Of a stretch of DNA of 64,000 nt, positions 1,819-62,576 are shown one piece after another. Every line of letters begins with the position of its first letter. Positions within the stretch are counted from its first letter, which is position 1. The notes beneath the pieces were generated by a model, which was not told the origin of the DNA, made no database searches, and worked only from the letters and a program-made list of their open reading frames with translations. The DNA is taken from the NCBI RefSeq assembly GCF_000956175.1, contig NZ_CP011070.1, positions 62,001 to 126,000 on the forward strand, read 5' to 3'. The DNA comes from Nitrosopumilus adriaticus (GTDB taxonomy: Archaea; Thermoproteota; Nitrososphaeria; Nitrososphaerales; Nitrosopumilaceae). A program made the translations under genes and the position numbers.

Positions 1819-2062
1819 ACTCACACACCTTCATTTCCAATGTATCTATCATATCCATATCTAAATTAAGAGAGTATAGAATACAACAGTAATTGTAGTT
1901 TAGTTTGTAATTAATTATTTTTAGTTAGTTTTAGATTTTCTTAAAAAAAATAATTAAAAAAAGATAGAGTGGAAATATTGGTGTGTGGGTTTAGTCCAAA
2001 AAAATTAAAATTAACATTTTTGTTATTGGTATGTTAAGAAAATCCTAAAAAACCTCATTTTA

Positions 2063-2086
2063 CCCCCTTTATTTCCATTCCAGGCG
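2063..2086 (-). repeat. origin recognition box-like element 1
   Basis: On the minus strand the box reads CTGGAATGGAAATAAAGGGG, extended by another G. It closely resembles the archaeal ORB core, a TCCAnTGGAAAC-type half followed by an A-rich spacer and a G tract. It matches the second box at 2124-2147 in all but a few positions, with the same orientation and a 61-bp period, about six helical turns. Orc1/Cdc6 binding is inferred from the resemblance and the neighbouring cdc6 gene. Confidence 0.85.
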
Positions 2087-2123
2087 TTAAGGTGGATGTT
2101 AACACTGTGAATATCATCAAAAT

Positions 2124-2147
2124 ACCCCTTTATTTCCACTCCAGGCA
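2124..2147 (-). repeat. origin recognition box-like element 2
   Basis: Second copy of the ORB-like box, reading on the plus strand CCCCTTTATTTCCACTCCAG. It differs from the first copy mainly by C for T in the TTCCA(C/T)TCCA part and by one C fewer in the C run. Both copies have the G-tract pointing towards cdc6 and the AT-rich stretch, the polarity expected if initiator loading is directed to that side. Confidence 0.85.
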
Positions 2148-2305
2148 TGAAAATACCCTAAAAATTAACCATTTTGATTGTGTGGTTGTTAATAACAAAA
2201 TTATGGCTAGGCGTGGCCTAGGCAGTCAACGTTAACAAACTAATTAGTTAACAAAGATTCTGGGATCCATTGAACTGTTAACTACTGATCCATTAGATCT
2301 CTAAG

Positions 2306-61943: not shown

Positions 61944-62576
61944 TTGTCAAACAATGTTGAAGAAAAAATTCTGCACGGGACTACCACTGTAGGTATCAAG
62001 GCTAAAGATGGTGTTGTCTTATGTGCAGATATGAGGGCCAGTGCAGGCTATTTTATCGCAAATAACAACACTATGAAAATCCAGAAAATTGATTTACACG
62101 CAGGATTGACTTTGGCTGGTGGTGTTGCAGACGCCCAAAATATTGTTGATATTTTACGTTATCATTCAAATCTTCATAGAGTTGAAAAACAAGGACCAAT
62201 TTCTATTCATTCACTTTCAAGACTTTGCTCATTGATATTCCATCAAAACCGAGGTTATCCGTTCATGGCTGATATTCTAGTTGGTGGTTATGATGCAAAT
62301 GGTCCTGCTTTATTTAATATTGATATGTTTGGCTCAGTTGAAGAAAAATCATATGTTACCACTGGTAGTGGCTCACCAGTAGCTTATGGTTTACTTGAAG
62401 AAGAATATAGAGAAGATCTTACCATAGAAGATGCAAAAAAAATAGCTCTCAGAGCTGTAAAAGCTGCAATTGTTAGAAACATTGGAACAGGCGATGGAAT
62501 TAACATCGCAATAATGGATAAAGATGGATTCCGTCTTTTGACAGATGAACAAAAGAAAGCAGTTATCGAACTTTAG
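61944..62576 (+). CDS. psmB: proteasome beta subunit
   Basis: Catalytic subunit of the 20S proteasome, 210 aa, TTG start. The propeptide is short (about 12 residues, ending HG) so that processing before TTTVGIKAKDGVVLCADM exposes the catalytic Thr. Lys in DMRASAGYF and the GTGDGINIAIMDKDG end are typical. A TTATTTAAA promoter box is at about 61895. aCPSF1 starts 8 bp after the stop, so the protein- and RNA-degradation genes share a transcript. Confidence 0.95.
   Translation: MSNNVEEKILHGTTTVGIKAKDGVVLCADMRASAGYFIANNNTMKIQKIDLHAGLTLAGGVADAQNIVDILRYHSNLHRVEKQGPISIHSLSRLCSLIFHQNRGYPFMADILVGGYDANGPALFNIDMFGSVEEKSYVTTGSGSPVAYGLLEEEYREDLTIEDAKKIALRAVKAAIVRNIGTGDGINIAIMDKDGFRLLTDEQKKAVIEL

Follow-up and report, generated by a model that had tools for sequence, protein, structure and literature searches.

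The window analysed here, a stretch of 64,000 nucleotides covering positions 62,001–126,000 of the single-contig 1,803,090-bp Nitrosopumilus adriaticus genome, contains a 481-bp intergenic gap (1825–2305) situated at ~64 kb on the chromosome, with its antipode at 965.5 kb. The gap corresponds exactly to the space between orc1/cdc6 on the minus strand (613–1824) and a divergent plus-strand gene for a 134-residue winged-helix protein (2306–2710). The initiator gene encodes a protein of 403 residues (TIGR02928 at 361 bits, Cdc6_lid and Cdc6_C), which probably starts at the ATG at 1816–1818, two codons inside the listed GTG. The gap abuts this gene directly, and the adjacency is kept in related loci.

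Two strong derived origin recognition boxes (ORBs) lie in tandem within the gap, box C (2063–2087, minus strand; plus-strand sequence CCCCCTTTATTTCCATTCCAGGCGT) and box D (2124–2148, minus strand; plus-strand sequence ACCCCTTTATTTCCACTCCAGGCAT). On the plus strand both fit CCCCTTTATTTCCA(T/C)TCCAG, at 2064–2083 and 2125–2144, where shuffled sequences give an expectation of zero. The preliminary description of this DNA had reported two boxes in direct orientation 61 bp apart, and both are present exactly so, start to start. It had also proposed looking for the box elsewhere in the genome; C and D are the sole matches with up to three mismatches in all 1,803,090 bp, so the box is not scattered, and no further box cluster was found anywhere in the genome.

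Read on the minus strand, the two boxes give CCTGGARTGGAAATAAAGGGG: the TGGAAA core is preserved together with the G-string, and the alteration is confined to the distal dyad half. Ori-Finder 2 was published with a common ORB motif, TCCA[CG]T[TG]GAAA[TC][GA]AAGGGGT (PMC4164010); the boxes agree with it from T[TG]GAAA through GGGGT, whereas the first half differs, with TGGA for TCCA. The core followed by the G-string is found as TGGAAATAAAGGGG in C and D and as TGGAAATATTGGTG in box B, described below. The full dyad TCCAnTGGA is replaced by TCCAnTCCA or TCCAnTCT in C, D and B, both here and family-wide. An altered dyad had been noticed before; one half is indeed altered, but the comparison had been made on the wrong strand.

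A 15-position matrix was built from the C and D boxes of all loci and scanned over 1.03 Mb of the same genome, where C and D score 24–27 bits. The hits ranking third and sixth in this sample also fall in the gap, at 1825 (minus strand) and 1970 (plus strand, inverted), bringing the ORB repeats at this locus to two strong and two weaker boxes. The earlier view of a simple layout with only two boxes in one orientation therefore does not hold. Box A (1825–1841, minus strand; TTGGAAATGAAGGTGTGTG), the third-ranking hit, is a degenerate ORB that abuts the cdc6 start and exceeds the matrix threshold in only ~40% of family loci. It contains AAGGTG, which may also serve as the cdc6 ribosome-binding site. 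Near-canonical ORBs occur close to cdc6 in families f6, f8 and f10 of our class-wide sample, making an ancestral box at that place likely. Box B (1967–1990, plus strand; GAGTGGAAATATTGGTGTGTGGGT), the sixth-ranking hit, is an inverted ORB that lies in conserved columns. A simple pattern finds it in most of 80 Nitrosopumilaceae loci, and the matrix finds it in 84 of the 100 family loci that have a C/D pair, 75–96 bp from C. The order A(−), B(+), C(−), D(−) is seen again class-wide, complete or in part.

The inverted pair formed by A (1825–1841), itself weak, and B (1967–1990) surrounds a stretch of 75–90% AT (1850–1966), with values of 0.75–0.90 in 40-bp windows and a peak of 0.90 at 1920–1959. 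An AT-rich stretch beside the boxes, directly upstream of orc1/cdc6, had been described earlier and is borne out. Within it, TAGTTTAGTTTgTaATTAATTATTTTTAGTTAG is strongly conserved. The segment 1895–1940, TAGTTTAGTTTGTAATTAATTATTTTTAGTTAGTTTTAG, is likewise highly conserved and carries repeated TAGTT units. In Haloarcula oriC1 (PMC3936714), an AT-rich region lies between two inverted G-string ORBs, both of which are required, and in Sulfolobus two ORBs, each essential, flank the duplex-unwinding element (DUE; PMC12141716). Because of this analogy, its AT content of up to 90% and its strong conservation, 1850–1966 is the best candidate for the unwinding element, and the interval between B and C (1991–2062) would be the alternative. 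The stretch is also the likely home of the cdc6 promoter.

The position of the gap was compared with the compositional axis of the chromosome. Plain GC skew, over the whole window and in 20-kb blocks, was uninformative, and GC skew is weak even at third codon positions (R2 0.06), which made it necessary to correct third-position skew for gene strand. Third-position skew was fitted against gene direction with two breakpoints, using 726 open reading frames from sampled stretches that make up 55.6% of the chromosome. The free fit of A–T skew places the breakpoints at 50 and 970 kb (R2 0.383), and a finer grid gives 45/965 kb. R2 is 0.375 when the axis is imposed at 64 kb and its antipode, whereas the median axis reaches 0.107, and none of 500 permutations of block order attained the observed fit. 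By block bootstrap, the 95% interval for one breakpoint runs from −72 to +31 kb relative to 64 kb and includes the site, and both third-position A–T and keto skew have their extreme at the locus. The skew inflection anticipated by the preliminary description is thus present, through third-position rather than GC skew, and together with the confinement of the box to this locus it upholds the claim of a chromosomal origin. The axis appears to fit the gap, with the qualification that composition by itself fails to separate origin from terminus. In several related complete genomes, cdc6 lies at most a few hundred bases from the contig start, which suggests that depositors had already set the origin here.

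The boxes could in principle be operators, through which Orc1 or another factor controls cdc6 and the divergent gene while replication starts elsewhere, given that two divergent promoters border them and that box A adjoins the cdc6 start. We consider this very improbable, since the skew axis passes through the site, ORB arrays of the same layout occur class-wide and the genome has no second box cluster; moreover, autoregulatory and origin roles are compatible. Thus, the gap is very likely the single chromosomal replication origin, of a known kind. A second Orc1/Cdc6 paralogue, 29% identical and found in only part of the family, is encoded outside the window (G000:C1:166168-167289; locus L084). 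Near its start is TTTCTAGTGGAAC, an ORB-like dyad without a G-string. A second origin at this paralogue was considered and rejected, as no ORB cluster is found there.

The altered half-site extends to the entire family. Every one of the 100 scored Nitrosopumilaceae loci has TCC or TCT as the three bases after TTTCCAn in both C and D, whereas families f3, f6 and f10 have TGG there (one TGA). TG also occupies this place in the clearest boxes of f2, f4, f5, f7, f8 and f9 loci, and outside the family the sequence is nearly always TGGA. Locus L159, which belongs to f10, was left out of the counts from the 100-locus box scoring. Across the class, a neutral pattern that permits either half, CCCCNNNNTTTCCANTSSA, was scanned in 120 genomes and matches almost only beside cdc6. 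The Nitrosopumilaceae matches have TCCA and those in other families mostly TGGA; a reversed control is almost without matches. The C–D spacing is 61–62 bp in 100 of 100 scored Nitrosopumilaceae loci; outside the family it is 60–62 bp in f3 and f6 and 59 bp in f10. The Nitrososphaeraceae-like f3 loci (L156-L158, L161, L163, L164, L166 and L169) have the same gene neighbourhood and a tandem C/D pair 60–62 bp apart, with a plus-strand B box in some, but their C and D boxes keep TCCAnTGGA (one TGAA).

In addition, the family boxes carry a conserved AGGCRT extension at positions 20–25, with 1.3–1.9 bits in Nitrosopumilaceae against 0.04–0.64 bits at positions 21–25 outside, although part of this contrast comes from closer kinship within the family, which inflates apparent conservation. 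As judged from the boxes, TGGA has given way to TCCA or TCTA in the distal dyad half, and AGGCRT has been added, family-wide. The 'derived ORB' suggested for this lineage is accordingly seen in every Nitrosopumilaceae locus examined, while other families keep the canonical half-site.

The change might represent decay, in which an unneeded distal half drifted and the wing arginine described below was lost as well. Each ORB binds one Orc1 monomer with polarity (PMC12141716), so dyad symmetry is not strictly required, and a change on a single branch cannot alone show adaptation. On the other hand, each position of TCCAGGC in C and D is 90–100% conserved across 100 loci from a family that extends down to ~60% Orc1 identity, and this conservation reaches past the old box, while positions 6, 16 and 26 vary, indicating that sites in the box are free to change. 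For the half-site, we therefore regard decay as unlikely.

The initiator has changed along with its boxes. The closest solved structures to Orc1 are 2v1u and 2qby, both of which were solved with origin DNA bound (PMC9738581); the same paper reports ORB contacts by four arginines of the winged-helix (wH) domain of Orc1 initiators. Residue 373 aligns with Aeropyrum R357 (2v1u) and Sulfolobus R354 (2qby), and R357 is presumably among the ORB-contacting arginines. In 121 Orc1 sequences, residue 373 is arginine in all 20 outsiders, as in both crystal-structure proteins, but isoleucine, methionine, serine or threonine in 101 of 101 family members, all of which group together as one clade in the Orc1 tree. 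The f3 proteins, whose boxes keep the canonical half-site, retain the arginine. The adjacent residue 374 is histidine in every family member (101/101) and mostly tyrosine elsewhere. Four positions are invariant outside the family yet lost within it, and 373 is the only one in the wing. Other Orc1 changes on the same branch are F11, P220, L358 and a three-residue insertion at 160–162.

We lean slightly towards the wing change compensating the box change. Since each occurred on one branch, their link rests on a single coincidence and is suggestive.

Besides the boxes, the gap holds an array of GTTAAC sequences (2086–2282), with exact copies at 2098, 2231, 2247 and 2277 and half-copies at 2086, 2165 and 2188. 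The 481 bp hold four exact GTTAAC copies, against an expectation of 0.05, and 13 half-cores (GTTAA/TTAAC), against 0.90; no other 300 bp of the sampled genome is as dense in them. GTTAAC columns are conserved, among them an inverted repeat, gTTAACA-n-TGTTAA, midway between B and C (2008–2038), defined by columns of a 73-locus footprint. Upstream of cdc6, GTTAAC exceeds expectation in f1, f2, f3, f5, f6, f8 and f10, and it is absent near cdc6 in the f4, f7 and f9 loci sampled. A genome-wide GTTAAC regulon was rejected, as the sampled 56% of the genome has 17 intergenic copies that, bar one pair, cluster only at the origin. A further conserved segment, GCTAGGCGTGGCCTAGGCAGTCAA, lies at 2204–2230 between the boxes and the divergent gene.

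The winged-helix gene itself is a neighbour of cdc6 in 114 of 120 loci and is single copy in 10 of 10 class genomes checked. Its product shows weak MecI/BlaI-like matches, and no Pfam or NCBIfam family scores above its cut-off. The predicted structure has a pLDDT of 77.6, with the winged helix-turn-helix part at ~92 and the N-terminal part less certain; its structural relatives are generic winged helices, none at E ≤ 0.001. The protein is a candidate second origin-binding factor, which may or may not read the GTTAAC array. Co-occurrence does not support it as the sole reader, as f4, f7 and f9 have the gene and no GTTAAC near cdc6.

A protein other than Orc1, for example this one, which is divergently encoded from cdc6 and origin-linked class-wide, might instead read the TCCAGGCRT half beside an Orc1 bound to the ancestral core. 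As an account of the box change we find this distinctly unlikely, because families with canonical boxes have the winged-helix gene too, so that its presence fails to explain a family-specific change, for which the Orc1 wing could account.

The arrangement can be compared with characterized origins. In N. maritimus, a single origin was found by marker frequency (Pelve 2013, as cited in PMC4010727 and PMC5333045) and has been described next to ORB repeats and a cdc gene (PMC5797428); strain SCM1 is Ori-Finder 2 entry NC_010085 (PMC4164010). The present locus resembles this origin, which belongs to the same genus and is likewise single and adjoins ORB repeats and cdc6. A cdc6-adjacent origin in Nitrosopumilus is thus already known. 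The texts examined on the N. maritimus origin give no thaumarchaeal box motif, and neither an altered dyad nor an inverted box B nor a GTTAAC array is mentioned in them; no description of the box/initiator switch or of the array was found in the literature searched. Sulfolobus oriC1 (ORB3-DUE-ORB2, ucm; PMC12141716) similarly has an adjacent Orc1-1-type initiator and inverted ORBs around an AT-rich stretch, as well as one more ORB and an extra conserved element between boxes. However, the Sulfolobaceae motif keeps the dyad (PMC4164010), and ucm with its binding protein UBP is a different element from the GTTAAC array. Haloarcula hispanica oriC1 has a G-rich inner inverted repeat as an enhancer, whereas the extra repeats here are GTTAAC, and the parts of PMC3936714 on that origin describe no tandem pair resembling C and D.

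Taken together, the best explanation, to which we assign a probability of roughly 0.9, is an oriC1-type origin in which the neighbouring Orc1 acts on four ORB-type boxes and both half-site and wing were changed in the family ancestor. By analogy with Sulfolobus and haloarchaeal work, Orc1 binding, unwinding and MCM loading would all take place at the gap. Orc1 from the adjacent gene would bind the four boxes as polar monomers, the inverted A and B flanking the AT-rich stretch at 1850–1966 and the tandem C and D lying beyond B, 61 bp or about six helical turns apart. Once bound, Orc1 would bring in MCM at the AT-rich stretch; there the duplex would open and two forks depart. In the Nitrosopumilaceae ancestor, the distal dyad half would have passed from TGGA to TCCA or TCTA and been extended by the conserved AGGCRT, while in the Orc1 wing an arginine invariant elsewhere was lost and a fixed histidine gained. 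The wing would most likely read the new distal half-site, with the recognition helix and ISM still reading TGGAAA and the G-string. A bolder reading, which we offer tentatively and think improbable, is that one family rewrote its origin code, wing and all main boxes together, from palindromic to asymmetric and extended, and that a second, uncharacterised origin factor, possibly the winged-helix protein, binds the GTTAAC array, which would be class-wide.

In archaea, recognition of ORBs by Orc1 serves as the model for the way an initiator locates its origin. A natural specificity switch tied to one half-site and one wing position would make the recognition code testable by swaps, and the GTTAAC array and winged-helix gene, both conserved and origin-linked, are candidates for a new origin factor. 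For the Nitrosopumilaceae, abundant marine ammonia oxidisers with little genetics, a defined 481-bp origin would offer a practical start for plasmids.
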